Assembly: GCF_031348265.1 (NCBI RefSeq)
Contig: NZ_CP133771.1
Coordinates: 868,001 to 932,000 of the forward strand
DNA length: 64,000 bases
DNA from: Streptomyces collinus
Lineage (GTDB): Bacteria > Actinomycetota > Actinomycetes > Streptomycetales > Streptomycetaceae
Direction: 5' to 3'
Numbering within the stretch: the first letter of the stretch is position 1; each line of letters starts with the position of its first letter. Shown piece by piece: positions 46,890 through 62,461 of this stretch. A model generated the notes under the pieces. The model was not told where the DNA came from. It saw only the letters and a program-made list of their open reading frames with translations, and did not search any database. The position numbers and the translations under genes were made by a program.

Positions 46890-47192
46890 TCAGGCGAGGG
46901 GTTCGGAGACGAGCTGGACCACCGTCGCCGGGCCGGCCCTGAACGCGGTGGCGGCCGCGTCGGCCTCGACCATGTGCGGGCTGACGTCGTGCGCGGCGAG
47001 CGCTTCCTCGGACGACCACCGCTCGATCAGGACGAAGCGGTCGGGGGCGTCACACACCTGGTGCATGTCGTACTGGAGGCATCCCTCTTCGGCCCGCACG
47101 AGCGGGGCGGTCCGCTCGAAGGCGGCGATCTGGTCCTTCCCCCGGCCCGGGAGCGTGGTGATGTGGATGACGAGCCGTATCGGCTGGGACAT
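46890..47192 (-). CDS. Antibiotic biosynthesis monooxygenase (ABM) domain protein
   Basis: Small ferredoxin-like-fold protein of 100 aa. MSQPIRLVIHITTLPGRG, EEGCLQYDMHQ and FVLIERWSSEEALAAH are the usual ABM/YgiN blocks. Such proteins are cofactor-free oxygenases of quinol or polyketide intermediates, or simply binding proteins. It is last in the biosynthetic operon, 85 bp after hom, so an accessory oxidation role is possible. The start at 47192 is chosen over a longer Arg-rich extension. Confidence 0.82.
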   Translation of the reverse strand: MSQPIRLVIHITTLPGRGKDQIAAFERTAPLVRAEEGCLQYDMHQVCDAPDRFVLIERWSSEEALAAHDVSPHMVEADAAATAFRAGPATVVQLVSEPLA

Positions 47193-47277
47193 CTGTCGAA
47201 CCCTTCTTCTCCTGCTGTGGCCCGGCGGGTTCGCCGGGGCCCTGGTCACATGTCGCGGGGCGCCGGAACGCCGGCCG

Positions 47278-48570
47278 CTAGGTGTAGATGCGCAGCACCC
47301 GGCCGACCGCCCGGACGTGGTCCAGGTCGTGCAGCTCCTCCAGCGCGTCGTGGAGTGCGTGCTCGGGTGCCGGGAAGGTGAGGAACACGATGCGTGCCTG
47401 GGACTCCGAACCGTGCTGGTCCACTGTGCGGATCGACACGCCGTGCCGCCCGAACACCCCGGTCACCTCGGACAGCACGCCCGGTGCCTCGTCGACGTCG
47501 GCCCGGATGTAGTAGGAGTGCACCAGGTCCCGTGTGGGCCGCAGGGCCGCCGGCCGGCCGACGGGGACGCGCCGGTGGGTCCCGCGCGCCAGGTGTTCCG
47601 CGGCGCCGACGACATCGCCCAGGATCGCCGACGCCGAGGGGCGGGGGCCGGCGCCGTGCCCGTAGAACATGAGCTCACCGGCCGCGGACGTGGTCACGAA
47701 GACCGCGTTGAAGCTCTCCCGCACGCTCGCCAGCGGGTGATCGCGCGAGATCAGCGCGGGGAAGACCTGTGCGCCGATCGTGCCCCGCGCATCCGGCGGG
47801 CCGGTGAAGCGCTCGGCGACCGCCAGGAGTTTGATGTCGAATCCGAACCGGGCGGCCAGTTCGAAGTCCTCGGCGAGGAGGCCGGTGATGCCCTCCCGGC
47901 TGACGTCGTCGGCCACGACGGACCGGTTGAACGCCAGCGAGGCGAGGATGGCGATCTTGGACGCCGCGTCGGCGCCCTCCACATCGGCACTCGCGTCGGG
48001 TTCGGCGTATCCGAGTTCCTGGGCCTTCGCCAGTGCCTCCTCGAAGCCCAGACCGTCGGCCGTCATGCGGGTGAGCATGTAGTTCGTGGTGCCGTTGACG
48101 ATACCGGCGACGCGCGTCACGTCCTCGGCCAGCAGCGACTCCCGGACGGGCCGCAGGAGGGGCACGGCGGCCACCGCGGCCGCCTCGAAGAAGAGGTCCA
48201 CGCCCGCCCGGTCGGCCGCGGCGAACAGGTCGGGACCCGCGCTCGCGACGAGTTCCTTGTTCGCGGTCACGACCGGCTTCCCGGCGTTCAGCGCGGCCGT
48301 CACCAGCTCACCGGCCGGTGAGGTGCCGCCGATCAACTCGACCACGAGGTCGACGTCCTCGGCCTTGACGACGTCGTAGGCGTTGGTGGTGAAGACCGCC
48401 GGGTCCAGTGCCACGGAGCGCGGCTTGCCGGGATCGCGCACCGCGACCCGTACCAGTTCCAGGGAGATCCCGGCGACGTCCTCGATCGCGGATCGCCGTT
48501 CGAGAAGCAGTCCGGCGAACTCCTCCCCGACGGTTCCGCAGCCGAGCAGTCCGATGCGGATGTTCCTCAT
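47278..48570 (-). CDS. hom: Homoserine dehydrogenase, biosynthetic-locus copy
   Basis: NAD(P)-dependent enzyme of 430 aa reducing aspartate semialdehyde to homoserine. The Rossmann motif GLLGCGTVG (7-15), TANKELVA with Lys105, catalytic GADAASKIAIL (Asp201, Lys205) and a C-terminal ACT domain (about 340-425) are all intact, so it looks fully active. Its ATG overlaps the flavin reductase stop (ATGA), placing it inside the NRPS-PKS operon rather than in a hom-thrC-thrB cluster. It is either a self-resistance copy of a drug target or a precursor enzyme. Confidence 0.93.
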   Translation of the reverse strand: MRNIRIGLLGCGTVGEEFAGLLLERRSAIEDVAGISLELVRVAVRDPGKPRSVALDPAVFTTNAYDVVKAEDVDLVVELIGGTSPAGELVTAALNAGKPVVTANKELVASAGPDLFAAADRAGVDLFFEAAAVAAVPLLRPVRESLLAEDVTRVAGIVNGTTNYMLTRMTADGLGFEEALAKAQELGYAEPDASADVEGADAASKIAILASLAFNRSVVADDVSREGITGLLAEDFELAARFGFDIKLLAVAERFTGPPDARGTIGAQVFPALISRDHPLASVRESFNAVFVTTSAAGELMFYGHGAGPRPSASAILGDVVGAAEHLARGTHRRVPVGRPAALRPTRDLVHSYYIRADVDEAPGVLSEVTGVFGRHGVSIRTVDQHGSESQARIVFLTFPAPEHALHDALEELHDLDHVRAVGRVLRIYT

Positions 48571-49091
48571 TCCGGCGCCCTCACGCTCTCGGTCAGGCCG
48601 TGCGGCCGGTGGGTTCCGAAGCTGCGCCGGTGGTAGACCAGCGGTGCTTCGCCCCCGGCGGCCTCCGCCGCGTCGACGCGGCCGAGCACGATGACGTGGT
48701 CACCGCCGTCCACCAGGCCGGCCACGGTCGACGCGATCCAGGCCGAGCTCCGCGCCAGGCGCGGGACTCCGTGGTCGACGTCCCAGGAGGTGTCACGGAA
48801 CTTGTCGGTCCCGCTCCTGGTCGCGAAGGACATCGCCAGGTCGTCCTGGTCGGCGCCGAGGACGTTGAGGCCGAAGCGCCCCGAGTCGCGTATCGCGGCG
48901 AGCGTCCGCGACCCCCTGTCCAGACTGGCCATCACCATGGCCGGCGTGACCGACAGCGAGGCGAACGCGCTGACGGTCGCTCCGCACGGCGCGCCGTCGC
49001 GCGGCATGGCCGTCACGATGGACACGGGTGTGGCCACGCAGGCCATGACGTCCTTGAACGCCTCCTGCACGGTGGTTTCAGTGATGTTCAT
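48567..49091 (-). CDS. Flavin reductase family protein
   Basis: Protein of 174 aa with the flavin reductase-like split-barrel: FKDVMACVATPVSIVTAM, GATVSAFASLSVTPAMVMASLD and FGLNVLGADQ. It uses NAD(P)H to supply reduced FMN or FAD to a partner oxygenase, here very probably the luciferase-like monooxygenase four genes upstream. It overlaps the binding-protein gene by 14 bases and hom by four, so it is tightly coupled. Confidence 0.9.
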   Translation of the reverse strand: MNITETTVQEAFKDVMACVATPVSIVTAMPRDGAPCGATVSAFASLSVTPAMVMASLDRGSRTLAAIRDSGRFGLNVLGADQDDLAMSFATRSGTDKFRDTSWDVDHGVPRLARSSAWIASTVAGLVDGGDHVIVLGRVDAAEAAGGEAPLVYHRRSFGTHRPHGLTESVRAPE

Positions 49092-49935
49092 CGAATCCGC
49101 CTGTTCCCATCGCCAGGGTCTCCCCCGTTTCGGCAGGGTGCTTCCCCGTCTTCCTCGTCCGCGGCACGAAGGCCTCGTCCGCGGGATCCATGCCCAGGCC
49201 GAAGCCGAGACCGGGCAGTTCGTCGACGAACCAGCGCTCGACGAGCCGGGTGTACTCCTCGGACGCGAACACGTCGGCGAGGGCGTCGTCGACGGCGCGG
49301 ACGAACGCCGCGTCCTCGTGCCGCATCATGAATCCGTAGTTCTCCCCGCCGAGGCGCACGTCCAGAAGTTCCGTGCCCGCCGGCGCGCCGGAGCCGCGCA
49401 GCAGTGCGCGGAGGATCACCTCGTCCGCCACCATGGCGTCGATCTGCCGGTCTGCCAGGAAGGCGTCCCTGGCCTCGCCGATGGACCGGACCCCGACGAA
49501 GGCGTGGTCGAAGCCCAGGTCCGCGTGGCTCTCCAGGGCGGCCTGGCTCGTCGAGCCCTGGATGCCGACCACGCGCGGCCGGCCCGCCGTCAGGTCCGCG
49601 CCGGGCTTCAGGGCGATCCGGTGCGCGGTGCGGAACACCGGCCGGCTGAAGGCGCAGCGCCGCGAGCGTTCCCGCGTGATGGTCGTCGACCCGCATTCGA
49701 TGTCGATGCGGCGCTCTGCCAGCAGCCTCTGTCTCGTCGAGGAGGTGACCTCGACCGCATCCAGCGGCGGTACCCCGCCCGCTCCGGAGAAGACCCGGTC
49801 GAGGGCCAGCCGCGCCAAGTCGACGGAGTAGCCGACGGGACGGAATTCCGCCGTCGGGGCGTAGGAGAACGGTGGCGTGCTGCGCTGCAGCCCCACCCGC
49901 ACCGTCGTGCCGTCGTGTGGGTCAGTGAACAACAC
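49078..49935 (-). CDS. Signal-less family 3 solute-binding-like protein
   Basis: Protein of 285 aa with the family 3 amino-acid-binding fold: VRVGLQRSTPPFSYAPTAEFRPVGYSVDLARLALDRVF, ERRIDIECGSTTITRERS, and GYSVDL/NYGFMMRHEDAAFVRAVDDALADV. No signal peptide or lipobox exists: the GTG start lies inside the end of the thioesterase gene and residue 12 is already in the first beta-strand. No permease or ATPase is nearby. It therefore probably works in the cytoplasm, binding or modifying an amino-acid-like intermediate. The role is open. Confidence 0.78.
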   Translation of the reverse strand: MLFTDPHDGTTVRVGLQRSTPPFSYAPTAEFRPVGYSVDLARLALDRVFSGAGGVPPLDAVEVTSSTRQRLLAERRIDIECGSTTITRERSRRCAFSRPVFRTAHRIALKPGADLTAGRPRVVGIQGSTSQAALESHADLGFDHAFVGVRSIGEARDAFLADRQIDAMVADEVILRALLRGSGAPAGTELLDVRLGGENYGFMMRHEDAAFVRAVDDALADVFASEEYTRLVERWFVDELPGLGFGLGMDPADEAFVPRTRKTGKHPAETGETLAMGTGGFDEHH

Positions 49936-50692
49936 CGATCACCCTGTCTGTCGTGCCGTGGACCGCCAGTTCCCCGACCAGGTCGAGGACGGGCTCCGGA
50001 TTCGTCAGGAGGTACATGTGTCCCCCTGGCACCGTCCGCCGTGAGAAGCGCCGGGTCGTCAGCGACGCCCAGCCGGCCATGTCCCCGGGTGCCAGCAGCG
50101 GGTCCCGGTCGGCCGCCAGGCAGTGCACGTCGACCGGCAGCGGCCGTGGGACCAGCGCGGGGAACTCGCGTGCCATCCAGGCCAGGTCAGCGGCCAGGAG
50201 ACGCGCGTGGAACGCGTCGGCGGCACTGGTCAGGGTGTCGCCGCAGGCTCCCGGGTCCTCCGCGGGGCGGTCGTGGTCCGCTGGCGGCGGCTGCCGGCCG
50301 ACCTGGTCCGTGTACGGCGGCGGGGCCTGGGCCGACAGCACCACACGCGCGCGCCGCCGGTAGACCGCCCACATCGCGTCGGCAACCGCCCACGCGACGG
50401 TCGCGCCCATGCTGTGGCCGACGAGCAGGATCTCGTCGTAGGGCATCTCGCAGATCCCCCGGGCGATGCGCACGGCGAGCTCACCGAGGTCGTCGGTGAG
50501 CGGTTCCGCGGTGCGGTCCTCGCGCCCCTTGAGCTGGACCAGGACCACGTCCACGTGCGTGCGGAGCCGATCCGCCCAGCCGCGGTAGGACGACATGCCA
50601 CCGCCCGCGTGGTGGAAGCAGACGGCCACCTGCCGGTGACCGGGCCCGTACCGTCTGAGCAGTCGCGCTTCCTCGGAAGTGACCTGCTCCAT
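49922..50692 (-). CDS. Type II thioesterase
   Basis: Alpha/beta hydrolase of 256 aa in the GrsT-type thioesterase family. CFHHAGGGMSSYRGWADRL is the oxyanion region, LKGREDRTAEPLTDDL the family block, GHSMGA the nucleophile elbow (Ser94), with His225 in PGGHMYLL and an aspartate in AADRDPLL. It hydrolyses acyl groups from carrier proteins, either clearing mis-primed PCP/ACP or, as no TE domain is present in the synthases, releasing the product. Its ATG overlaps the previous stop by one base (ATGA-like TGATG). Confidence 0.9.
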   Translation of the reverse strand: MEQVTSEEARLLRRYGPGHRQVAVCFHHAGGGMSSYRGWADRLRTHVDVVLVQLKGREDRTAEPLTDDLGELAVRIARGICEMPYDEILLVGHSMGATVAWAVADAMWAVYRRRARVVLSAQAPPPYTDQVGRQPPPADHDRPAEDPGACGDTLTSAADAFHARLLAADLAWMAREFPALVPRPLPVDVHCLAADRDPLLAPGDMAGWASLTTRRFSRRTVPGGHMYLLTNPEPVLDLVGELAVHGTTDRVIGVVH

Positions 50693-51255
50693 CAGACAGC
50701 GGCCCGTGTCCGGGGCTGCTCGTGGCCCGCCGCTTCGACCCGGCGCAGTCCGGTGCGGTACTGCGCGGCGAGTTCCCGGTACTCGGCGGCCGTCTCGTCC
50801 AGCACCGACACGTCGCTGTCGCTCAGCGTCATCAGGACGGAGGGCGGCGTGCCCGCGATGAGGCTCCGGGGCGGGTAGACGGGGCCGGCGCTGAGCACCG
50901 CGCCCGCCGACACCCGGCAGCTCTCGCCGACCGAGACGCCGTTCAGCAGCATCGCGCCGATCCCGACGACCGTACCGGAGCCGACCGAGCAGCCGTGCAG
51001 AACCGCGCTGTGGGCGACCGTGACGTCCCGTCCGATGTCCAGCGGAGCGCCTGGGTCCGAGTGCAGCATCGCGTGGTCCTGGATGTTGGAGCCCCGGCCG
51101 ATCCGCACCGTCCCCTTGTCCCCGCGAACGGTGACGCCCGGCCAGAGACTGACGTCCTCCCCGATCTCGACGTCCCCGATCACCACGACGTCGTCGAACG
51201 CGTAGACGCTCGGGTGAACGCGCGGCTCGATGCCCTGGAAGCTGTACGTGCGCAC
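50692..51255 (-). CDS. Gamma-carbonic-anhydrase-like hexapeptide protein
   Basis: Left-handed beta-helix protein of 187 aa. NIQDHAMLHSD and VAHSAVLHGC supply the histidines that bind zinc in gamma-class enzymes (about His65, His82, His87). VVGIGAMLLNGVSVGESC and LIAGTPPSVL follow the usual YrdA/CaiE pattern. In this operon it may hydrate CO2, act on an acyl or aminoacyl intermediate, or serve as a trimeric scaffold. The GTG start is three bases after the monooxygenase stop, with GGGAG upstream. Confidence 0.8.
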   Translation of the reverse strand: MRTYSFQGIEPRVHPSVYAFDDVVVIGDVEIGEDVSLWPGVTVRGDKGTVRIGRGSNIQDHAMLHSDPGAPLDIGRDVTVAHSAVLHGCSVGSGTVVGIGAMLLNGVSVGESCRVSAGAVLSAGPVYPPRSLIAGTPPSVLMTLSDSDVSVLDETAAEYRELAAQYRTGLRRVEAAGHEQPRTRAAV

Positions 51256-51258
51256 AGG

Positions 51259-52413
51259 TCAGGCTCCCTTCTGAAGTAGCTGCGAGAGCCGGCCGAGGCT
51301 GGCCAGCACCTCGTCTTTGGACAGTCCGAAGTCCACGAGGCACGCGACCTCGTCCACCCCCATGTCGCGAAATCCCTCCAGCGTCTGCCGGGCCTGCTTC
51401 ACATCGCCGATGAGGGAGCTGGAGGAGACGTACCGCTGGAACACCATCTCCAGGAATTCGTCCCGGTCCGCGTCGAGGTTCTGCAGGGTCCGCGCCTTGT
51501 CCTGGGCCTCCGCCTGTCCCGACGTCGCGTGCTGCGTGACGAAGGAACCCAGGTACTCGATCATCGGCCCCCGGACGCGTTCCACGGCCTCGTAGGTGTC
51601 GGCGCCGACGTAGGTGTGCAGCATCAAGGAGACGACACCGGCCTCGGGGTCGAGTCCGGCCCGGGCGCGTGCCTCGCGGTAGATGCCGATGCGGTTCTGG
51701 AGCTCGGCCGGCCCGAAGTTGATGAGCGCCGTCAGGACGTTGAGGCCCTGCTCCCCCGCGAAGCGCCAGGAGTCGACGCTCTTCGACGAGGTGAGCCAGA
51801 GGGGGAGGTCCGGCTGCACGGGCCGGGGGAAGGTCAGGATGTCGTGGCGCTCCCCGGCGGGGTCGGTGCGCTCGACGGCGACGCCGCGCCAGAGCTTGCG
51901 CAGCTCCTCCCGTGACTCGTTGAGCACCTGGCCCCTGGTCTCGTACGCCTCGGGCTTGAGGACGAAGTCCCGTGAATGCCAGCCGGGCGCCACCGCCAGA
52001 TCGACGCGCCCGCCCGACAGGTTGTCGACGAGGGCCCATTCCTCCGCCACCCGCAGGGTGTCGTGCAGCGGGAGGTTCACGCTTCCGGAGCGGATGCGAA
52101 CGTTCTCGGTGATCACGGCGACGGCCGCGCCCAGGAGCGCCGGATTGGGATAGGCGCCGCCGACCTCGGTGAAGTGCCGCTCCGGCGTCCAGACCGCGTT
52201 GTAGCCCGCGCGGTCGACGAACCGGGAGACCTCGACCAGGAGGTCGTAGGGATCGCTGTCGCCGCTCAGTCCGGAGAAGAAGATGACGCCCAGTTCGGGA
52301 AGGGCCGGCGCCGGTGGCCGCTGGTCTCCGGCTGGTGCGGGTGCGTCCCCCGACCTCAGTTTCGCTTTCAGGCGTGCCAGTTGTCCGGCGTCCAGGAGGG
52401 AGTCGTCAGACAT
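51259..52413 (-). CDS. MupA-type luciferase-like monooxygenase
   Basis: FMN-dependent monooxygenase of 384 aa in the luciferase-like subfamily linked to NRPS/PKS pathways (MupA/Atu6756 type). After a charged N-terminus (LKAKLRSGD) it shows LGVIFFSGLSGDSDPYDLL, AVWTPERHFTEVGG, NLSGGRVDLAVAPGWHS and LWLTSSKSVDSWRFAGEQGLNVLTAL. Relatives hydroxylate the alpha-carbon of a carrier-bound beta-keto thioester. Its start overlaps the PKS stop by eight bases, and a flavin reductase is in the same operon, so a two-component system is likely. Confidence 0.88.
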   Translation of the reverse strand: MSDDSLLDAGQLARLKAKLRSGDAPAPAGDQRPPAPALPELGVIFFSGLSGDSDPYDLLVEVSRFVDRAGYNAVWTPERHFTEVGGAYPNPALLGAAVAVITENVRIRSGSVNLPLHDTLRVAEEWALVDNLSGGRVDLAVAPGWHSRDFVLKPEAYETRGQVLNESREELRKLWRGVAVERTDPAGERHDILTFPRPVQPDLPLWLTSSKSVDSWRFAGEQGLNVLTALINFGPAELQNRIGIYREARARAGLDPEAGVVSLMLHTYVGADTYEAVERVRGPMIEYLGSFVTQHATSGQAEAQDKARTLQNLDADRDEFLEMVFQRYVSSSSLIGDVKQARQTLEGFRDMGVDEVACLVDFGLSKDEVLASLGRLSQLLQKGA

Positions 52414-55405
52414 GTGCGGGCTCCTCCCGCAGCAGTGCCGTGACCACCTGGGTGGTCGCCGTGACCGAGCTGTTCTCGTAGAAGTCACGGACGGAGAAGT
52501 CCAGCTGGAATGTCTCCCGCAGCTTGTTGATCAGCTGGATGGCCATGAGCGAGTTGCCGCCGAGCTCGAAGAAGCCCCGGTTGTCGGCTGCGGCGGCCTC
52601 CCCGAGGAAGCCTTCGAAGATCCGCCCGACGACGCGCCGGATCTCCTCGGTCGGATCGTCCGGGTCCGGCGGGCCGTCGGCCGGCGTGGTCGTCGCGTTC
52701 TGGACCCGGTCGCCGTCGAGGACGGCCTCGGCGGTGCCCGTCGGTACGGTGCGGGGCGGGGCCTCCTGCTCACCGGCGCGGTCGTCGGCCGCGAAGCCCA
52801 GAGTCGGCTCGACCCAGTGGACGCGGCGTTCGAACGCGTAGGTGGGAAGGGACGTCATCCGCGCGGCGGTCGCGTACCTGCCGAGGGGAACCTCCGAGTC
52901 TGTGGCCCAGCCGAGCGCGACGGCGTCCGCGAAGGACTCGTCCTCGTGCTCCCGCTCCCCCAGCGCCTGGGCCAGCTGGAGGTTCTGGGAGGCGTCGGGC
53001 CCGTAGCCCGCCCGCACCAGGTTGCTCATCGACCGGCCCGGGCCGATCTCGACGAACCTGCTCACGCCGGAGTCCCGCAGCGTCTGCACCGATGCGGCGA
53101 AGTCGACCGTACGGAGCAGGTGGTCGGCCCAGTAGTGGGGGCTGCGGGCCTCGTACTCCGTGAGGAACCGTCCGGTGACGTTCGACACCAGCGGAATGCG
53201 CGGTGCCCGGAAGTCGCGGGGCTTGAGGAACTCCAGGAAGTCGTCAGCGGCCTGCCGCATGAGCGGCGAGTGGAAGGCGTGCGAGGTCGCCAGCCGCTGG
53301 TGGTGCGTTCCGGCCTCGGCGGCTCGTGCCGCTGCCGTGGCGATCGCCTCGTGGGTGCCCGACAGCACGTACTGCTGGGGGGAGTTGGTAGCCGCCACGA
53401 CGAGGGAGGCGTCGTCGAGCAGGTCCGTGAACGGCTCCAGGCGGTCGACCGCGAGCATGGCTCCGGTCTCGCACCGCCCCATCAGCCGTGCCCGCGTCGC
53501 GACGAACTCGGCCGCCGCCTCCAGGTCGAACACGCCGGCGACGGTCGCGGCGACGATCTCGCCGAGGCTGTGCCCGAAGACGTACCGGGGCCGGACACCC
53601 GAGTCGATCAGGGCGGACGCCAGCGCGTGCTCCACGGCGAACAGCAGGGGCTGTGCCACGGAGGTGTCGATGCCGTCGACCTGGGAGTCGGGGCCGAGGA
53701 ACGCGGTCACATCGACGTCGGTGTGCTGGTTGACCGCGGCGGTCGCCTCGGCGAGCCGGCGCGAGAAGTGCTCGTTGTTCGCGGCGAGCACGGCTCCCAT
53801 CGCCTGGCGTTGCGTCCCCTGCCCCGCGAAGACGAACGCGATCTCGTCCGGGCCCGCTTCCGTACCCCTGTGGTACCGCCCGGCCCTCAGGCGGGAGACC
53901 GCCTCCGTCCGGTCGATCGCGGCCAGCGACGCCCGGTGGGGGTGCCGTGTCCGTCCCTCGCGCAGCGTGTAGGCGTACTCGGCGAGCGAACCGTCCGGGT
54001 GCGCGGCTAGGTGCCGTGCGAGTGCGGCCGCCTGGCCTTCGAGGGCTTCCTCCGTGCGTGCCGAGAACGTGAGGATGCTCGGGCCGTCGGCGGGCGCCGC
54101 GGGCTCTGCGGGTGCCTGCTCGAAGCTCTTGAGGATGACATGGCCGTTGGTGCCGCCCATGCCGAAGGCGCTGACGGCGGCCCAGGTCTCGGTGTCGCTG
54201 TCCAGGGGCCGCCCCTCGGTGGTCACGAAGTAGCGGGAGCCGTCCAGTTCGAGCGCCGGGTTGACCTCACCGACGTTGACCGTCGGCGGCACGTACCGGT
54301 GCTTGAGGACCAGGGCCGTCTTGATCAGCCCGATGATGCCGGCGGCGATGTTGACGTGTCCGAAGTTGCCCTTGAGCGAACCGATCCCGCACGGGGCCCC
54401 GTCGACGCCGTACGCCTGCTTGATGGCCTCGATCTCGATGGGGTCGCCCAGCGCCGTGCCCGTGCCGTGCGCCTCGATGTAGGAGACGTCCGTCTGCTTG
54501 GCGCCCGAGACCTGGAGGGCGTCGCTGAGCACCGCGACCTGGCCGGAGACGCTCGGCGCGGTGAAACTGACCTTCTGCGCACCGTCGTTGTTCACCGACG
54601 AGCCGGCGATCACCGCGTGCACCTCGTCCCCGTCGGCGATCGCGTCGCGCAGCCGCTTCAGCAGGACGAGCCCGAGCCCGTTGGTGAAGAGCGTGCCGTT
54701 CGCGCCGGAGTCGAACGGGCGGCACACCCCGTCCGGCGACAGCACGCCGCCCACCTGGTACTGGTACCCGGACTCCTGCGGAACGCGGATGTGGACCGCT
54801 CCGGCGATGGCCGCGTCGCATTCGTTCAGCAGGAGGCTCTGCACCGCCGAGTGGACGGCCACGAGCCCGGTCGAGCACGCCGTCTGCACGTTCACGCTGG
54901 GTCCGCGCAGGTTCAGCTTGTAGGAGATGCGGGTCGCCAGGAAGTCCTTGTCGTTGCCGTGCCGGACGACCATCTCGCCCAGCGACTCGACCAGGTCACT
55001 GCGGCGCAGCGCACCGAAGAGGTAGGTGCTCATCCCGGAGCCGGCGAAGACGCCGATCCGCTGCTCGGTGCGCTGCGGATCGATGTTGGCCCGCTCCAGC
55101 AGGGACACCGACGATTCGAGCATGAGGCGCTGCTGGACATCGAGGACGTCCGCTTCGCGGGGGGAGTATCCGAAGTACGCGGAGTCGAACTCGGCGACGC
55201 CTTCGAGGACTCCGGCCCTGTTGACGTAGTCCCGGCGCGACCGCTGCTCGGCCGGCACCCCGGCGGACGCGACCTCCGGGTCCGAGAGGTCTCTGATGAC
55301 GGTCTCGCCGTTCACCAGCTTCTGCCAGAACGCGTCGACGTCCGGCGCCTCGGGCAGGCGGCATTGCATCGAGACGATCGCGATCAGCTCGTCATCGTTT
55401 TCCAT
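52406..55405 (-). CDS. Single-module PKS, KS-AT-ACP
   Basis: Polyketide synthase of 999 aa without reductive domains. KS about 1-428: Cys177 in TACSTGL, His313 in EAHGTGT, His350 in GNFGHVN. AT about 520-825: Ser613 in GHSLGE and the HAFH motif (709-712) typical of malonyl-CoA. ACP about 920-990: Ser952 in ELGGNSLM. It extends an aminoacyl-PCP with one malonate and leaves a beta-keto group. No docking or TE domain is seen. The ATG at 55405 is preferred over the one at 55411 because AAGGA then has five-base spacing. Confidence 0.93.
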   Translation of the reverse strand: MENDDELIAIVSMQCRLPEAPDVDAFWQKLVNGETVIRDLSDPEVASAGVPAEQRSRRDYVNRAGVLEGVAEFDSAYFGYSPREADVLDVQQRLMLESSVSLLERANIDPQRTEQRIGVFAGSGMSTYLFGALRRSDLVESLGEMVVRHGNDKDFLATRISYKLNLRGPSVNVQTACSTGLVAVHSAVQSLLLNECDAAIAGAVHIRVPQESGYQYQVGGVLSPDGVCRPFDSGANGTLFTNGLGLVLLKRLRDAIADGDEVHAVIAGSSVNNDGAQKVSFTAPSVSGQVAVLSDALQVSGAKQTDVSYIEAHGTGTALGDPIEIEAIKQAYGVDGAPCGIGSLKGNFGHVNIAAGIIGLIKTALVLKHRYVPPTVNVGEVNPALELDGSRYFVTTEGRPLDSDTETWAAVSAFGMGGTNGHVILKSFEQAPAEPAAPADGPSILTFSARTEEALEGQAAALARHLAAHPDGSLAEYAYTLREGRTRHPHRASLAAIDRTEAVSRLRAGRYHRGTEAGPDEIAFVFAGQGTQRQAMGAVLAANNEHFSRRLAEATAAVNQHTDVDVTAFLGPDSQVDGIDTSVAQPLLFAVEHALASALIDSGVRPRYVFGHSLGEIVAATVAGVFDLEAAAEFVATRARLMGRCETGAMLAVDRLEPFTDLLDDASLVVAATNSPQQYVLSGTHEAIATAAARAAEAGTHHQRLATSHAFHSPLMRQAADDFLEFLKPRDFRAPRIPLVSNVTGRFLTEYEARSPHYWADHLLRTVDFAASVQTLRDSGVSRFVEIGPGRSMSNLVRAGYGPDASQNLQLAQALGEREHEDESFADAVALGWATDSEVPLGRYATAARMTSLPTYAFERRVHWVEPTLGFAADDRAGEQEAPPRTVPTGTAEAVLDGDRVQNATTTPADGPPDPDDPTEEIRRVVGRIFEGFLGEAAAADNRGFFELGGNSLMAIQLINKLRETFQLDFSVRDFYENSSVTATTQVVTALLREEPAHV

Positions 55406-55471
55406 GGTCATCCTTGGGTCGTGCCAGTGGGGCGGGCGCGCAGCGGGCGCGTCGGGGAGGGGCGGCCGGGC

Positions 55472-57304
55472 TCAGCGCCGGCAGGTGCGCCGGGACGACA
55501 GGACACGGCTGCGTGCGGCGCGGGCCGTCGCCGCCGTACGGCCGGGCACCCGGCCGTACGGCTCCTCGGACAGGGAGTCGAGGAACCGGCACTGCGCGTT
55601 GAAGGAGGCGTACTCGAAGAGCCGGACGAGCGGGAAGCGCACGTCGAACTCGCTCTGGATCTCCGAGTGGAGAGCCACGATGGTCAGCGAAGTCCCGCCG
55701 ATGTCGAAGAAGTTCGACTCACGGTCGGCCAGGGACGAGGTCCCGCCACCGGCCACGGAGAGCCAGATGCGCTCCAGCCGGGCGGCGGCCGGCCCGCTCC
55801 TGGCACCGGCGCGCCGATCGCTGTCCGCGCGCCGTGCCTGCACGTGGCCGCGGGCGATCTCGGTCAGTGCCGTGCGGTCGGTCTTGCCGTTGGGGAGCTT
55901 CGGCAACTCGGGGAGGTAGAGGAAGGCCGAGGGCAGCATGGCGCTCATCAGCCGCTCGCTCAGGTGGTCCCGCAGGGCCCGTTCCGCCGCCGCGTCCCCC
56001 TCGACGATCGCCACGATGGTCTTGGTGAACCGGTCCTCCGGCGCGCAGACGAAAGCGTCCCGGATGCTCGGGTGGGACTGGACGGCGGACCGTACCTCCT
56101 GCAGCTCGATCCGGACGCCCGCGATCTTCACCTGGTCGTCTGCCCGGCCGAGGATCTCCAGGACGCCGTCCGCGCCGTACCGTCCGAGGTCCCCGGTCGG
56201 GTAGGCGAGGACCCGCTCACCGCCGAGGTGGAGCTCGACGAACGGGGAGACGATCCGGCCGTCGACGAGGTAGCCGTACGAGGGGTGGTCAGCCGCGATG
56301 TGGATCTGGCCCGAGACTCCGTCCGCGCAGGGTTGGCCGCTCTCGTCCAGGACGTGGCTGCGCGACCGGGGAAGGTTGTGTCCCACGGGCTGTATCCCGG
56401 GGGCCGGGGGCCGGGGCACCCGGTGGAAGTGCTGGGCCAGGGTCGTCTCGGTCGGCCCGTAGAGATTCACCACCTGGCAGTGCGGAAAGAGGTCGTGCCA
56501 CCTGTTCACCAGGGCGCCGTCCAGGGGCTCCCCCGCGAAGAAGGACAGGCGGACTCCCGGTATCGGCTCGCTCTCCTCCGGGCCCGACAGCCACACCTTG
56601 CCCAGTGACGGGACCAGGTGGAATGCGGTGATCTCCTCCGCGCGCAGGAAGTCCCGCACCGCGGTGCCGTCCAGGTGCCGTCCATCCGGGATGCACAGCG
56701 TGGCCCCTGAGATCAGCGGCGTGAGTGCGTCCCGGAACCAGACGTCGAAAGAGAGGTTGGTGAAATGGGCGAAGCGATCCTGCGGGCCGATGCCGAATTC
56801 GCCGGACTGCCACTCCAGGAACCGGGACAGGCCCTCGTGGCTTCCGACGATCGCCTTGGGCTTCCCGGTGGATCCGGAGGTGAAGGCGATGTAGGCGTAG
56901 TCGTCGTGATGGTGGAGCGCCCCGGCCGGGCCGCCTCCCGGCAGGGGTTCGGAGCCGGGCCGCGACTCGATCCGGTGGCCGTTCGCGCAGTCGACGGTCG
57001 CCCGCGCGCGGCCGGAGGCCAGCATGGTCTCGCGGCGCACCTCGGGGAGCGCGTCATCGACGAGCATGACGGTCGCGCCGGCCTTCCACACCGCGAACAC
57101 GGCCGTGATCACCGACGCGCTGCGCCTGCCGAGCACAGCGACGACATCGCCGGCCCCGATGTCCCGCGCCCGCAGGTCGTCCGCCAAGGCCCCGGCGCGG
57201 GCGGACAGTTCGGAGAACCGGACGGACTCCGAGGCACAGCGGATCGCGGTCGCGTCAGCGAATTTCTCACAGGCCTGCTGTAACAGGGTGTCGGCCTTTT
57301 GCAC
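55472..57304 (-). CDS. NRPS initiation module, adenylation-PCP didomain
   Basis: Protein of 610 aa that activates one amino acid and loads it on its own carrier. A domain: FTSGSTGKPKAI (142-), SFDVWFRD, NLYGPTETTL, GELGRYG-like PTGDLGRYG and PNGKTDR. PCP: FFDIGGTSL with Ser539. Pocket residues by alignment to GrsA are D187, V188, R191, H229, F255, A257, L281, L289, A290 and K. This resembles the serine code except for an arginine at the 239 position, so an acidic or otherwise unusual amino acid is likely. Codon 8 is TTA, implying bldA dependence. GTG start with GGAGAG upstream. Confidence 0.92.
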   Translation of the reverse strand: MQKADTLLQQACEKFADATAIRCASESVRFSELSARAGALADDLRARDIGAGDVVAVLGRRSASVITAVFAVWKAGATVMLVDDALPEVRRETMLASGRARATVDCANGHRIESRPGSEPLPGGGPAGALHHHDDYAYIAFTSGSTGKPKAIVGSHEGLSRFLEWQSGEFGIGPQDRFAHFTNLSFDVWFRDALTPLISGATLCIPDGRHLDGTAVRDFLRAEEITAFHLVPSLGKVWLSGPEESEPIPGVRLSFFAGEPLDGALVNRWHDLFPHCQVVNLYGPTETTLAQHFHRVPRPPAPGIQPVGHNLPRSRSHVLDESGQPCADGVSGQIHIAADHPSYGYLVDGRIVSPFVELHLGGERVLAYPTGDLGRYGADGVLEILGRADDQVKIAGVRIELQEVRSAVQSHPSIRDAFVCAPEDRFTKTIVAIVEGDAAAERALRDHLSERLMSAMLPSAFLYLPELPKLPNGKTDRTALTEIARGHVQARRADSDRRAGARSGPAAARLERIWLSVAGGGTSSLADRESNFFDIGGTSLTIVALHSEIQSEFDVRFPLVRLFEYASFNAQCRFLDSLSEEPYGRVPGRTAATARAARSRVLSSRRTCRR

Positions 57305-57454
57305 GGATGACTCTCCATCATCTGGTGAGTTTTAAATCGAGGGAGGACTCGGAGATGAGAAATACCGCGGAAACAATGGGCGGGTGTATACCTCTGCCGC
57401 AGAGCTCCGCGACTCCGATCGAGATGCTTCCAGCGGAAAGGGAGCACCGTCAAG

Positions 57455-57470
57455 CGGCAATAATGTGCCG
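57455..57470. promoter_or_regulatory. Dyad site 1, putative regulator binding site
   Basis: CGGCAATAATGTGCCG: five-base arms CGGCA/TGCCG around a six-base AT-rich centre. It matches the layout of dyad site 2, 121 bp away. Confidence 0.5.
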
Positions 57471-57573
57471 CCCAGGCGGAGAAGCGGCCTCACACAACAC
57501 GCCCTCTGAATTCATTTGCCCAGCACCCGACAAGCGGACAGCCCGCGGGCAGACTCCGTTCATCCCGCGTCAA

Positions 57574-57593
57574 CCGGCAAATATTTGCCGGTC
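57574..57593. promoter_or_regulatory. Dyad site 2, perfect 20-bp palindrome
   Basis: ACCGGCAAATATTTGCCGGT is a perfect palindrome. Its core CGGCAAATATTTGCCG shares arms and spacing with site 1. It lies 180 bp upstream of the regulator and 270 bp upstream of the A-PCP start. Confidence 0.65.
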
Positions 57594-57772
57594 GTTCGAC
57601 TGTCCCGAAGCTCACTCGCTCATCGACGGAACCGTGAGGTGGCCGGGACGGGAGATCATCTTGCGCCATGCGAATGGTCCGGTAGCATGCAGTGGAGTCG
57701 CGACGCTCCTCTATCGCGGGCCGCCAACGGAGTTCGGCCTCTGACTGCAATACAGAGAGGTAATTCCAGCCG

Positions 57773-58588
57773 GTGCACCACCCCACTAGGCTTCCCGACT
57801 TACTCCGCGCTTGGCGGGCTGCGGCGGGAAAGAAAATGCAGCGCGGCAAGCCGCTCCCCCAGAAGGAAGTCGCCCAGCGCATGGAAGTGAGCGAGCGCTG
57901 GTATCGCAACCTGGAGAGCAACGTCGGCGCCCCCCTCACCCCCGAAGCGCTGATACGCCTTTCCACCGCGCTCGCACTCGGCCCGGACGAACGCCTGGCC
58001 CTGTACAGACACGTACACGCGAACACCAAGCTGGGTGCGCCGGAACCGGAGGAAGTGGAAGAGGCCCGCGACGCGCTCACCCACCTGCTCGCCACGCACG
58101 AGCGGTACCCGGCCTACGTCGTCGACCACGCGTGGAACATGCTCGACTGCACGGCCCCCATGGCGTCCTGGTTCCCCTGGGTCCGTGAACCGGAGGCCAA
58201 CCTCCTGCGCTGGGCCCTCACCGCACCGGAGGCACGCGAGCAGCTCAGCGACTGGCCCAGGCATGCCGCTCTCTATCTCGCCCAGTTGCGCTTCGCCCTG
58301 GTCAGCAGCCAAGACCACGAGCAACTCGGCGCGATACTCGACGAAGCGCTCGCCGACCCCGAGTGCCGGAGGCTGTGGGACCTGGAGACCAAGGTCGTCG
58401 CCTACCGGCAGGGGCATCGTTTCCGCCTTCGGCTCCCGCATGTCGCCGGACATGAGATCACCGTCACGTCCCAGGTTCTGCTGCCCGCGCACCAGCAGGA
58501 ACTCCGCTACGTCCTGCTGCTGCCCGAGTCCGGTTCGGCGCCGGGGGCGAGCCGGATCGAGCACGACCCCGCGCAGTGCCGCTGTTGA
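57773..58588 (+). CDS. MmyB-type XRE helix-turn-helix regulator
   Basis: Regulator of 271 aa. The N-terminal helix-turn-helix (LPQKEVAQRMEVSERWYRNLES, about 28-49) is followed by an MmyB-like ligand-binding domain (YPAYVVDHAWNMLDCTAPMASWF). The family often controls nearby secondary-metabolite genes and may sense a fatty acid or pathway product. It is divergent from the A-PCP gene across a 468-bp region with two dyads and followed by the EamA exporter. Codon 10 is TTA (57800-57802), so its translation should need the bldA tRNA. GTG start with GAGAGG about 11 bases upstream. Confidence 0.88.
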   Translation: MHHPTRLPDLLRAWRAAAGKKMQRGKPLPQKEVAQRMEVSERWYRNLESNVGAPLTPEALIRLSTALALGPDERLALYRHVHANTKLGAPEPEEVEEARDALTHLLATHERYPAYVVDHAWNMLDCTAPMASWFPWVREPEANLLRWALTAPEAREQLSDWPRHAALYLAQLRFALVSSQDHEQLGAILDEALADPECRRLWDLETKVVAYRQGHRFRLRLPHVAGHEITVTSQVLLPAHQQELRYVLLLPESGSAPGASRIEHDPAQCRC

Positions 58589-58658
58589 GGACGGTGGCCG
58601 GCCCGTACGTCGAACACGCGCGCACAGAGCACGCGAAGAACATCAGGAGGACACCATC

Positions 58659-59696
58659 GTGAGCCGACAGCCGGGAACCACTTCGGCGGCCGGTGGGGCA
58701 CCGCCCTCCGGCACGATGGACGGGCGGGCACTCGTCGCGGCATCCGTCACCGTGGTGCTGTGGGCATCGTCGTTCATCTCGATCCGCAGCTCCGCCGCGC
58801 ACTTCGACCCGGGGCCGCTCGCCTTCGGCAGACTGGCGGTGGCCTCGATCGTTCTGGGCGCCATCGCGCTGGTCCGGCGCGCGGGTTTCCCGCCCCGCGA
58901 GGCGTGGCCCGGCATCGCCGCCTCCGGGGTCCTGTGGTTCGGCGCGTACATGGTCGCGTTGAACTGGGGTGAGCGGGAGGTGGACGCGGGCACGGCCGCC
59001 ATGGTCGTCAACGTGGGCCCGATCCTGATGGCTCTGCTGGGCGGCTGGCTGCTCAAGGAGGGGTTCCCGCCCCGGCTGATGGCGGGCGTGGCGGTGTCGT
59101 TCGCCGGCGCCGTGATCGTCGGCGTGGCCACGTCCGGCGGGGAGGACACGTCCGTCCTCGGCGTGCTGCTGTGCCTGCTCGCGGCGGTGGTGTACGCGGT
59201 GGGCGTCGTGGTGCAGAAGCCCACCTTGAAGCACGCGACTCCCTTGCAGGTCACGACGTTCGGCGCACTCGTGGGGGCGCTGGCCTGCCTGCCGTTCGCC
59301 GGCCAGTTCGCGTCGCAGGTCAGCAGAGCTCCTGCGGCTGCCTCTCTGCAGGTGGTGTACCTGGGCATCTTCCCGACGGCTCTCGCGTTCAGCACGTGGG
59401 CCTATGCGATATCGCGCACCACGGCGGGGAAGATGGGCGCCACGACCTATGCAGTGCCGGTGATCGTCGTCTTCATGTCGTGGCTGTTCCTCGATGAGGT
59501 GCCCAACTGGCTCTCGCTGCTGGGTGGTCTGCTGTGCCTGTGCGGGGTCGCGGTGTCGCGGATGGGGGGAAGTGCGCCGGACCGGTCTCCGCGAGAGGTG
59601 CCGCCCAGCCGGACGGCCGACGGGGCCCCGCAGGAGTCCGTCCTCCACGGGTCGAGCGCGCCCGGTACCGATGGGAACGACCGGGGCGCGAGGTGA
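58659..59696 (+). CDS. EamA/DMT family exporter
   Basis: Membrane transporter of 345 aa with ten predicted segments in two EamA repeats (TVVLWASSFISIRSSAAHF and VLGVLLCLLAAVVYAVGVVV). Family members such as RhtA export amino acids and related metabolites. AGGAGG lies eight bases before the GTG. It is directly downstream of the regulator gene and probably co-transcribed, making it the leading candidate to export the product of the locus. The long hydrophilic C-terminal tail carries no motif that I recognise. Confidence 0.88.
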   Translation: MSRQPGTTSAAGGAPPSGTMDGRALVAASVTVVLWASSFISIRSSAAHFDPGPLAFGRLAVASIVLGAIALVRRAGFPPREAWPGIAASGVLWFGAYMVALNWGEREVDAGTAAMVVNVGPILMALLGGWLLKEGFPPRLMAGVAVSFAGAVIVGVATSGGEDTSVLGVLLCLLAAVVYAVGVVVQKPTLKHATPLQVTTFGALVGALACLPFAGQFASQVSRAPAAASLQVVYLGIFPTALAFSTWAYAISRTTAGKMGATTYAVPVIVVFMSWLFLDEVPNWLSLLGGLLCLCGVAVSRMGGSAPDRSPREVPPSRTADGAPQESVLHGSSAPGTDGNDRGAR

Positions 59697-59730
59697 CGGT
59701 TCCCGCTTGAACCGGGTCCTTCCGCGACCG

Positions 59731-59763
59731 TGCCCACCAGGCAGCTTCGGCAGCCGGTGGGCA
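59731..59763. terminator. Hairpin between exporter and permease
   Basis: Arms TGCCCACC and GGTGGGCA with a 17-base loop, between two convergent genes. Confidence 0.55.
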
Positions 59764-59794
59764 CGTTGGCGTTTCCCTTGCCCTCGTGACGAGC

Positions 59795-61240
59795 TCAGTC
59801 TGCCGTGCCGTCGGTGCCGGCCCGTGGGCGGCCCGGCTTGCGGACCAGTGCGACGGCCAGCACCACGGCGGCGACCAGCAGGGACAGCAGAACGGTCCGG
59901 CGCCCGTCGTGTTCGGCGTCGGTGAGCATGTACCCGAGGACGAAGACGATCACCGCCGCCGTCGCCCAGGTCAGATACGGGTACAGCCACATCTTCACGA
60001 CGAGCCTCTCCGGTGCCTCCCGCTGGAGGATCTTGCGCATCCGCAGGTGTGAGAAGCAGATCACCAGCCAGACGAACAGGGCCACCGCGCCACTGGAGTT
60101 GACGAGGAAGAGGAACACCGTCTCCGGAAACCGGTAGTTGAGGAAGACGGCGACGAACCCGAACATCACGGAGGCGATGATCGCGGTTCGCGGGACTCCG
60201 CGGTCGGTGACGCGGGCGAAGGCGCCGGGCGCGTCCCCGCGCTCCCCCAGCGAGTAGGCCATCCGGGAAGCCGTGTACACGCCCGAGTTGAGGCACGACA
60301 GCACCGATGCCAGCACGATGACGTTCATGATCTGGCCGGTGTGCGGGATCCCGAGACTGTCGAGGGCGGCCACGTAGGAGCCCTTGTCCGTGACCGCCTC
60401 GCTGTCCCAGGGCACCAGGCAGACGACGACGAAGATCGACCCGAGGTAGAACACGGCGATGCGCCAGATGATGCTGTTGGTCGATGTGGTCACCGCCCGC
60501 CTCGGGTCCTCCGACTCGGCAGCCGCCAGGGTCGCGATCTCACTGCCCATGAAGGAGAAGACGACCAGGGTCACACCGGTGAGGACCGCGCCGGGCCCGT
60601 TGGGCAGGAAGCCGCCGTGCCCCGTCAGGTTGCCGAGCCCGGCCTGGGGGCTGTCGACACCCGGCAGCACGTGGAAGACCGCCAGCGCGCCGATGACGAT
60701 GAACGCCCCGATGGCGACGACCTTGATGCCGGCGAACCAGAACTCGAACTCACCGTAGGAGCCGACCGAGACGAGGTTCGTGGCGGTCAGCACCACCATC
60801 ACGACGAGCGACCACGCCCATTGGGGCACGGCGGGTATCCAGCCCTCCAGGATCACGGCTCCCGCGGTCGCCTCGATGGCGAGGACCACGACCCAGAAGA
60901 ACCAGTACAACCAGCCGATGGTGAACCCGGCCCAGGGCCCGAGTGCCCGGTCGGCGTGGGCGGAGAAGGAGCCGGAGGCGGGGTGGGCCGCGGACATCTC
61001 GCCGAGCATGCGCAGCACGCAGACGACGAGCAGACCCACCAGGGCGTACGACAGGAGGATGCCGGGCCCCGTGATCGCGATGCTGGTGCTGGAGCCGACG
61101 AAGAGACCGGCGCCGATGACACCGCCGATGGCGATCATCGACAGGTGGCGGTTCTTCAGCCCGGCTTTCAGGGCCGGAGCGGCCGGTTCGTGCGGGGGCG
61201 CGCCGGGCTGAGCGGCGACCTTGTCGGGTGAAGCGGTCAT
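59795..61240 (-). CDS. Amino acid permease (GabP/AnsP type)
   Basis: APC-superfamily transporter of 481 aa with 12 membrane segments. NRHLSMIAIGGVIGAGLFVGSS is the conserved first segment, with LSYALVGLLVVCVLRMLGEM and PASGSFSAHADRALGPWAGF following. It probably imports GABA, asparagine or a similar amino acid by proton symport. Its place at the biosynthetic locus suggests precursor uptake or product recycling. The ATG at 61240 is preceded by GAGGA. An upstream in-frame extension of 36 codons is Arg/Pro-rich and unlikely. Confidence 0.9.
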   Translation of the reverse strand: MTASPDKVAAQPGAPPHEPAAPALKAGLKNRHLSMIAIGGVIGAGLFVGSSTSIAITGPGILLSYALVGLLVVCVLRMLGEMSAAHPASGSFSAHADRALGPWAGFTIGWLYWFFWVVVLAIEATAGAVILEGWIPAVPQWAWSLVVMVVLTATNLVSVGSYGEFEFWFAGIKVVAIGAFIVIGALAVFHVLPGVDSPQAGLGNLTGHGGFLPNGPGAVLTGVTLVVFSFMGSEIATLAAAESEDPRRAVTTSTNSIIWRIAVFYLGSIFVVVCLVPWDSEAVTDKGSYVAALDSLGIPHTGQIMNVIVLASVLSCLNSGVYTASRMAYSLGERGDAPGAFARVTDRGVPRTAIIASVMFGFVAVFLNYRFPETVFLFLVNSSGAVALFVWLVICFSHLRMRKILQREAPERLVVKMWLYPYLTWATAAVIVFVLGYMLTDAEHDGRRTVLLSLLVAAVVLAVALVRKPGRPRAGTDGTAD

Positions 61241-61774
61241 GGAACGTCCTCGGATGCGTCGTTGGGGTGGGGTGCGCCCCGGCGGGTCGACTCCGGCCGC
61301 CGGGTGGTTCAACCGGCCGTCGGGTGGATCAAGGGCGTGGCCGCGCACCGTGGTTGCGCGGGGGCCCGGCCGGTCGGGCCCCCGCGCGGCGTGCGGACCG
61401 GCCGACCGGTCTCCCGCGCGGCCTGCGGACCGGCCTGCCGGTCCCCGCGCGGCGTGCTGCCGACGGGGCGGCCCCGTCGTCTTCCTTGTGCGGCGGCGGT
61501 GGGCCGTGCCGGGGGGACAACCAGCCTAGGAGGGCTGCGCATCGATCTGGAAGGCCAGTTTCTTCGCAGAGGCAGGCACTGCGGGACATCCCATGACAAC
61601 CTGTGCATGCACTCTTTCTTTATGCCCCCCTAAACAAAAGCGACCTACAGGAAATCCTGGGTCCTCTGAAAAGATGGGCCGGGCGTGCACCACAACTCCC
61701 GTAGCCCGCTCCGTTTCTGATGCAACGGCGCGGGCTCGCACGCTCAAAGAGAACCGTGGATAGAGGCGATTGTT
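61241..61774. other. Intergenic region with GC-rich repeats
   Basis: 534 bases between the permease and tRNA-editing genes. 61241-61510 is extremely GC-rich and repetitive. 61540-61770 is more balanced, with an A-rich patch near 61628-61665, and should hold the promoter of the editing gene. No gene is recognised. Confidence 0.65.
61381..61464. repeat. 32-bp degenerate tandem repeats
   Basis: CCCGCGCGGCNTGCGGACCG-type units start at 61381, 61413 and 61444 (spacing 32 and 31 bp). Each also contains internal CCGGCCNNCCGG dyads. Confidence 0.75.
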
Positions 61775-62461
61775 GTGACCGAGCAGAGCCAGATCTACCT
61801 GGCGGACACCTACGCGTACGAGGCCGACACCGAAATCATCGGAATCGACGCGTCCTCCGCGCGAGTACGGATTGCTCTCGCTCGGAACATCTTTCATCCG
61901 CAGGGAGGGGGGCAGCCCCATGACCGCGGCACAGTCGCGGGCATGGAGGTCACCCCCTGCAAGGACGCGGCATCCGGATGGGTCTGGCTGACGCTCCCGG
62001 CCGGTACCGAATGGCCGGCAGGGCAGCCGGCCGAGGGCGTCGAGGTGCACAGCCGCATCGACCCCGGCCTGCGTCGACTGCACGCGGCCCTGCACACGGC
62101 CGGACATCTGGTGGACGCCCTGGCCCGCCCGCACGGCTTCCAGCACACGGGCAACAATCATTTCCCGGGCCAGGCCCGCATCGAATACGCGGTCGACGGC
62201 GCCGAGTTCGACAAGGACGAGCTGGCGGCCACCCTCACCACCGGGCTGGACAAGGCCATCGCGGAAGCTCTGCCCGTCACCGCCGGAGAGCAGGACGGAC
62301 GACGCACCATCACCATCGAGGGCCTTGCTACGGAATTCTGCGGCGGCACTCACGTCACCGATCTCGGGCTCCTGACGGACGTCGCCGTCCGTTCCGTCAA
62401 GGTGAAGTCCGGGCGCCTGCGGATCGGCTACACCGCGGAGCATGCCGAGAGCGCGATCTAG
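61775..62461 (+). CDS. AlaX-type alanyl-tRNA editing protein
   Basis: Freestanding editing domain of 228 aa that hydrolyses mischarged aminoacyl-tRNA. ARNIFHPQGGGQPHDRG is the alanyl-tRNA synthetase editing signature. Zinc ligands are in HTAGH (HxxxH) and FCGGTHVTDL (CxxxH). The GTG start has GAGGCG upstream. Classical AlaX removes serine or glycine from tRNA-Ala. Here, beside an NRPS-PKS locus whose product looks like an amino acid, it may protect the producer from a misincorporated analogue. It stands alone between a permease and a convergent LysR gene. Confidence 0.88.
   Translation: MTEQSQIYLADTYAYEADTEIIGIDASSARVRIALARNIFHPQGGGQPHDRGTVAGMEVTPCKDAASGWVWLTLPAGTEWPAGQPAEGVEVHSRIDPGLRRLHAALHTAGHLVDALARPHGFQHTGNNHFPGQARIEYAVDGAEFDKDELAATLTTGLDKAIAEALPVTAGEQDGRRTITIEGLATEFCGGTHVTDLGLLTDVAVRSVKVKSGRLRIGYTAEHAESAI

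Follow-up and report, generated by a model that had tools for sequence, protein, structure and literature searches.

5-Hydroxy-4-oxo-L-norvaline (HON, RI-331) is an antifungal amino acid that has been known for decades and that the accessible part of PMC9293202 describes as a mechanism-based inhibitor of homoserine dehydrogenase (Hom), its C5 becoming joined to the nicotinamide of NAD on the enzyme. In the mupirocin system, the monooxygenase MupA requires an FMN reductase and, according to the accessible text of PMC10952193, acts on beta-ketoacyl substrates carried by an acyl carrier protein (ACP), accepting neither the beta-hydroxy counterpart nor a beta-ketoacyl pantetheine free of the protein; another study, cited there, found that its homologue OocM depends on a KS0 domain. 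Condensation through a side-chain carboxyl group is described for ACV synthetase in the available passages of PMC13338154, and in the model for the adenylation (A) enzymes AfcQ and VinN in the portion of PMC12186527 at hand, a pocket arginine binds the alpha-carboxylate of aspartate and turns its beta-carboxylate toward the catalytic lysine. Here we analyze a stretch of 64,000 nucleotides from Streptomyces collinus (contig NZ_CP133771.1, positions 868001-932000; hereafter the window), part of a single-contig genome of 8.87 Mb. The window holds a nine-gene operon on the minus strand (46890-57304) that combines one nonribosomal peptide synthetase (NRPS) loading protein, one polyketide synthase (PKS) module, a MupA-family monooxygenase, and a second Hom, and we put the probability that this operon makes HON at roughly 0.65. 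Gene content, conservation, the A-domain specificity code, and the divergence of Hom carry the argument, and from these we infer the substrate, the regiochemistry, the product, the mode of resistance, and export.

Pfam and NCBIfam profiles of the window proteins identify the nine genes as listed below, with adjacent genes overlapping or separated by no more than about 60 bases. PCP, KS, and AT stand for peptidyl carrier protein, ketosynthase, and acyltransferase.

55472-57304, minus strand: A-PCP, a stand-alone NRPS loading protein (Pfam AMP-binding, AMP-binding_C, PP-binding)
52406-55411, minus strand: KS-AT-ACP, a single PKS module (Pfam)
51259-52413, minus strand: MupA/Atu3671-family FMN-dependent luciferase-like monooxygenase (NCBIfam TIGR04020); start placed at an internal ATG, the longest open reading frame (ORF) reaching 52488
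50692-51255, minus strand: hexapeptide protein resembling gamma-carbonic anhydrase (gamma-CA) and PaaY (Pfam Hexapep)
49922-50677, minus strand: free-standing thioesterase (Pfam Thioesterase)
49078-49935, minus strand: SBP_bac_3 protein, a homologue of Glu/Asp-binding proteins (Pfam, NCBIfam)
48567-49091, minus strand: flavin reductase (Pfam Flavin_Reduct)
47278-48570, minus strand: second Hom (Pfam/NCBIfam)
46890-47249, minus strand: ABM-domain protein (Pfam ABM)

A sequence-only reading of this DNA had already placed the A-PCP, the KS-AT-ACP, the MupA-type monooxygenase, the flavin reductase, the thioesterase, and hom in one closely spaced operon, and the profiles bear out each of these assignments; the hexapeptide, SBP_bac_3, and ABM proteins had been missed. 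The A-PCP and KS-AT-ACP proteins, with intact catalytic residues and with the carrier serines of both PCP and ACP present, make this a hybrid NRPS-PKS cluster.

That same reading had proposed a genome search for the co-occurring gene set, and tblastn with the window proteins detected the operon in seven further genomes, two of them from another genus of the Streptomyces family. The eight carrier loci are thus the window, L013 (S. massasporeus JCM 4139), L014 (Streptomyces sp. KL109B), L015-L017 from the same genus, and L059 and L060 from the other genus. A core of A-PCP, PKS, monooxygenase, hexapeptide protein, SBP protein, flavin reductase, and hom is present in all eight. Because the gene order of this core recurs in seven other genomes, including the two of another genus, a chance arrangement is ruled out, and the co-conservation of the A-PCP and the PKS in 8/8 loci would fit their working together on one chain. 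The remaining genes are less constant, with the thioesterase found in six loci (in L015 and L060, which lack it, the flanking ORFs overlap directly), the ABM protein in five, and an MmyB-like regulator in four within the stretches examined. The operon is rare among the sampled genomes. Counting its own genome each time, the window's A-PCP found matches in 4/392 genomes of a genus sample (E up to 1e-100) and, at E up to 1e-90, two close and one distant match among 391 genomes of an order sample, four close and four distant among 394 of a family sample, and itself alone among 394 of a class sample; these samples overlap one another. A contig pattern scan, sensitive to close relatives only, returned two loci, and plasmid records yielded six distant A domains with a best identity of 38.7%.

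Read via motif anchors, the specificity code of the A domain is DVRHFALLAK, identical in the window and all seven relatives. To check the reading, the same positions were taken from a nonrandom set of 34 other A-domain hits (30 loci picked among the best-scoring ones in five genomes, and four domains from one locus, L050), which gave codes of Ser, Thr, and Gly types. Arg at position 239 occurs in one of these 34, the third domain of an NRPS in genome G170 and a 41% identical relative of the window's domain. The set includes DVWHFSLVD codes, presumably of Ser type, in which D235, V236, H278, F299, and L322 match the operon code, making five of nine positions; all eight carriers have R in place of W239 and A in place of D331. 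We read the pocket as Ser-like, with these two changes probably making room for a carboxylate. A pocket with R239 and H278 appears compatible with an acid substrate, and aspartate is the acid that we would assign to it. R239 presumably also occurs in the codes of the microcystin synthetase domains that load D-MeAsp and D-Glu in iso-linkage and of the ACV synthetase domain for alpha-aminoadipate; the literature searched yielded no printed specificity codes for these domains, and the accessible parts of PMC6122825 and PMC13126170 contain no useful passage on position 239.

If aspartate were instead activated at its alpha-carboxyl, the product would be 3-amino-5-hydroxy-4-oxopentanoic acid, an isomer of HON, and Hom would be a weaker target or owe its presence to something else. 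D235, presumably the usual contact of the alpha-amine, is kept, and R239 could then bind the side-chain carboxylate. However, such a product would be less like homoserine or aspartate semialdehyde and would leave unexplained both the hom conserved in 8/8 loci and the homoserine-efflux-like exporter described below, and the codes that we assume for alpha-aspartate domains (DLTKVGHI) are unlike DVRHFALLA. We consider this alternative unlikely. The five-position agreement could also mean that serine or another small amino acid is loaded to give a different hydroxymethyl ketone, for example 3-amino-1,4-dihydroxybutan-2-one. This seems improbable to us, since the two changes seen in all eight loci, W239R and D331A, would remove contacts to serine and add a positive charge, and the hom copy would be left with no clear reason. 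The alternatives considered here and below overlap, and their odds need not sum to one with that of HON.

Four A domains outside the carriers, 38-41% identical to the window's, have nearly the same code (L050 10122-11852 of G170, L056, L057, and L058; three with DVRHFALLAK and one with DVRHFALMAK). The open frames that contain them are 1127 to 2881 residues long, and these domains may belong with the window's domain to a wider class of acid-activating domains. G170 was rejected as a carrier despite its identical code, its A domain belonging to a multimodule NRPS; the cluster there also encodes a split transketolase, a protein of the Asp/Asn beta-hydroxylase family, and an arginase-family protein.

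The cluster Hom carries NAD-binding, catalytic, and ACT domains together with the catalytic motif residues and is a homoserine dehydrogenase by these features, and the genome's other hom lies elsewhere, beside PALP- and GHMP-kinase-domain genes as in a thr operon. Identity between cluster Homs and 28 housekeeping copies is 42-49%, whereas any two of the housekeeping copies share at least 80%. In the tree, a branch with 100/100 support sets the cluster Homs apart as a clade of their own. They also differ in a conserved loop that reads FEAAAVAAVP[IL]LR in 8/8 cluster Homs and YEAAVA[GA]AIPL in 28/28 housekeeping copies. At one loop position, the cluster Homs have A and the five solved enzymes shown (of 14 listed) have V. 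We take this loop to border the active site. The stretches ANK, GYAE, D..G.DAA.K, and NGTTN are retained, and as these are presumably the catalytic motifs, the cluster Hom is probably active. Two hom copies were found in all seven carrier genomes searched (KL109B was outside the genome-wide search), and hom is linked to the operon in 8/8 loci, which is the pattern of an extra target copy for self-resistance. Within a 150-genome sample of the genus that includes two carriers, the 148 noncarriers comprise 11 with two or more homs, 134 with one, and three in which none was detected. A second hom is thus not unique to carriers, yet it is constant in the carriers searched, and we would assign to the cluster Hom the role of an insensitive target copy. 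No HON contact residues were found in the accessible text of PMC3958823.

The operon copy of hom could alternatively serve precursor supply, through homoserine use or a shift of flux in the aspartate family, with a product that is not an inhibitor of homoserine dehydrogenase. Retention of the catalytic motifs, and with it a probably active enzyme, fits this proposal. Nevertheless, the nine operon genes include neither an aspartate kinase nor a semialdehyde dehydrogenase, the cluster Hom keeps its ACT domain, and a loop that is constant in 28/28 housekeeping copies save one G/A change has been rewritten in all eight cluster copies, as expected for target modification. On these grounds, a precursor-supply role has a low probability in our estimation.

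One genome without the operon, G292, has as its extra hom a 362-residue ORF (L051 9402-10490) whose matched part shares about 38% identity with the cluster Hom; it was dismissed as a hidden carrier after hom proved the only query matched in the 20 kb around it. Some of the additional Homoserine_dh-domain genes of the 11/148 noncarriers (two or three in total per genome) could mark other pathways making inhibitors of homoserine dehydrogenase.

In the PKS module, the KS contains TACSTG, EAHGTGT, and KGNFGH, the AT contains SHAFHS, and the ACP has its serine; the catalytic residues are kept in 8/8 loci, with EAHGTGT changed to ESHGTGT in L014. We take the HAFH of the AT to be a malonyl-type motif. 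Pfam detected no ketoreductase, dehydratase, enoylreductase, or thioesterase (KR, DH, ER, TE) domain in the PKS protein and no ketoreductase or condensation domain in either the A-PCP or the PKS protein. The monooxygenase scores 402.9 bits against TIGR04020 (cut-off 244.45), which places it in this family, and it probably acts as the alpha-hydroxylase of a beta-ketoacyl-ACP, with the flavin reductase presumably supplying FMNH2. An outcome without alpha-hydroxylation, by Baeyer-Villiger chemistry or no hydroxylation at all and leading to 4-oxonorvaline or another aspartate-derived ketone, has a precedent in the trans-acting PKS enzymes OocK and LmbC_OX, named as Baeyer-Villiger enzymes in the accessible text of PMC10952193, but we find it the least probable alternative with a score well above the cut-off of the family of MupA, which that text presents as an alpha-hydroxylase of beta-ketoacyl-ACP.

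Loss of CO2 following release of an alpha-hydroxy-beta-keto acid would give a hydroxymethyl ketone. The sequence-only reading had included hydrolysis of the chain; an obligatory release role for the thioesterase is not supported, as two loci lack its gene. The protein is possibly a type II thioesterase and, because it is absent from 2/8 loci, perhaps an editing enzyme. The hexapeptide protein, found in 8/8 loci, becomes a speculative candidate for release. It falls below both NCBIfam cut-offs (148.3 of 250 bits for gamma-CA and 127.7 of 319.6 bits for PaaY), and for this reason, we call it only gamma-CA-like; release, decarboxylation, and the handling of CO2 or bicarbonate are all possible roles.

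Genes beside the operon and its counterparts include candidates for export and regulation, as follows.

57773-58588, plus strand: divergent MmyB-like regulator (Pfam MLTR_LBD)
58614-59696, plus strand: EamA exporter, start approximate (Pfam EamA)
59795-61348: amino-acid permease, probably outside the conserved unit
L017 5897-7267, L059 1681-2754, and L060 15771-16580: LysE/RhtB-like exporters

In 5/8 loci there is an EamA exporter, encoded on the other strand from the operon and past the regulator if the locus has one; it was not found in the examined stretches of L017, L059, and L060 (only about 3 kb upstream being covered in L059 and L060). In these three loci, a LysE-family exporter lies directly upstream of the A-PCP gene on the operon strand. 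The best NCBIfam model for these LysE proteins is RhtB homoserine/homoserine-lactone efflux (PRK10520), with 166.2 (L017), 168.2 (L059), and 167.7 (L060) bits, all under the cut-off of 209. This exchange points to a cluster whose exporter can come from unrelated families. The SBP protein has as its best model a glutamate/aspartate-binding protein (PRK10797; 72.1 bits, far under the cut-off of 375) and as its closest PDB chains 2ia4/2vha, and none of the eight sequences shows a signal peptide by inspection. The exporter and SBP matches are separate and individually weak pointers to a small amino acid resembling aspartate or homoserine. Exporters and an amino-acid permease had been described beside the operon from sequence; one exporter, the EamA protein, was identified, and the permease, present in only one of the seven other loci (some of which end before its position), is probably outside the unit. 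Along with the permease, the Na/H exchanger (45293-46552) was matched by tblastn only in the nearest relative, L013, and AlaX (61775-62461) and LysR (62466-63476) were matched in none of the seven, some loci again ending earlier; cluster membership was not supported for any of the four. The AlaX-like alanyl-tRNA editing protein sits between the permease and LysR and scores 81.7 bits against an NCBIfam cut-off of 300.

In the pathway that we propose for HON, the A domain would activate L-aspartate at the side-chain carboxyl and load it onto the PCP, and the KS-AT-ACP protein would extend it by one malonate; lacking a ketoreductase, the line would retain the beta-ketone. The MupA-type monooxygenase, using FMNH2 from the flavin reductase, would then hydroxylate the alpha-carbon of the ACP-bound beta-keto thioester. 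Release by the thioesterase (in loci without that enzyme, by the hexapeptide protein) followed by decarboxylation would yield HOOC-CH(NH2)-CH2-CO-CH2OH. The extra Hom would sustain threonine and methionine synthesis in the presence of HON, the EamA or RhtB-like exporter would expel it, and the cytosolic Glu/Asp-type binding protein may hold the product or an intermediate. We also entertain, as a possible but on balance doubtful extension, layered self-protection in which the insensitive Hom and the homoserine-type exporters are joined by the intracellular, signal-less Glu/Asp-binding-type protein as a HON sponge, or in which that protein is instead the releasing or decarboxylating enzyme for the hydroxylated beta-keto intermediate. 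An enzymatic role is conceivable because the fold has enzyme relatives, the cyclohexadienyl dehydratases (E about 2e-5).

HON had been suggested from the sequence as the product, and the idea survives tests able to sink it, as hom is not a stray neighbor and the code is not plainly that of an unrelated amino acid. The acid-compatible pocket in 8/8 loci, the divergent extra hom, the homoserine-efflux-like exporters in three loci, and the need of MupA for a beta-ketoacyl-ACP (in the accessible passages of PMC10952193) all favor it, with the product itself deduced from them. The labeling result put forward in its support, the incorporation of aspartate plus an acetate carbon into HON, was not found among the literature matches listed. 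Several observations weigh against HON. The code shares five of its nine positions with the presumed Ser-type codes, and a pocket arginine alone cannot distinguish alpha- from beta-carboxyl activation; moreover, the operon arginine is at code position 239, and that of VinN is at the Arg331 position, as the accessible part of PMC12186527 describes it. No KS0 domain is seen in the operon, and OocM needed one. The thioesterase is lacking in 2/8 loci, and the simple scheme can do without the hexapeptide, binding, and ABM proteins. A second hom occurs without the operon in 11/148 noncarriers, in G292 among 18 noncarriers, and in G1132 among 3, the match in G1132 being weak (108.7 bits). Lastly, no genome identified as that of Streptomyces akiyoshiensis, a proven maker of HON, is among the hits compared.

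The literature searched yielded no paper describing gene clusters for HON, judged mostly by title among the matches listed, and, as the search ranking implies, none combines 5-hydroxy-4-oxonorvaline with "biosynthetic gene cluster"; because most subscription journals lay outside the search, an earlier description may exist. If our assignment is right, the operon supplies the genes for a long-known antifungal amino acid, and it shows how a reactive hydroxymethyl ketone is built from a side-chain carboxyl by a minimal one-plus-one NRPS-PKS line. The altered Hom loop would likewise show how an enzyme escapes the mechanism-based inhibitor HON. The operon gene set is a ready probe for finding producers.

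Comparison with the characterized systems clarifies what is shared and what would be particular to this operon. The mupirocin system has a monooxygenase of the same family, a separate flavin reductase, and a beta-ketone left for hydroxylation, as far as the accessible text of PMC10952193 describes it, whereas in the operon a one-module line, equipped with an AT of its own, would supply the substrate, no KS0 or bimodule is seen, and the product would be released and decarboxylated. The likeness to VinN and AfcQ lies in the proposed activation at the beta-carboxyl while a pocket arginine binds the alpha-carboxylate (accessible part of PMC12186527); in contrast to those enzymes, the operon A domain is fused to its PCP, and no alpha-decarboxylase is present in the operon. 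The iso-linking domains of the microcystin synthetases presumably share both R239 and H278 with the operon and ACV synthetase R239 only; most other positions of these codes presumably differ, and those domains sit in large peptide synthetases. Finally, yeast homoserine dehydrogenase (PDB 1q7g, a structure that we believe to hold HON) belongs to the same enzyme family as the operon Hom; the yeast enzyme is the sensitive target, whereas the operon enzyme, with its changed loop, is probably the insensitive counterpart.

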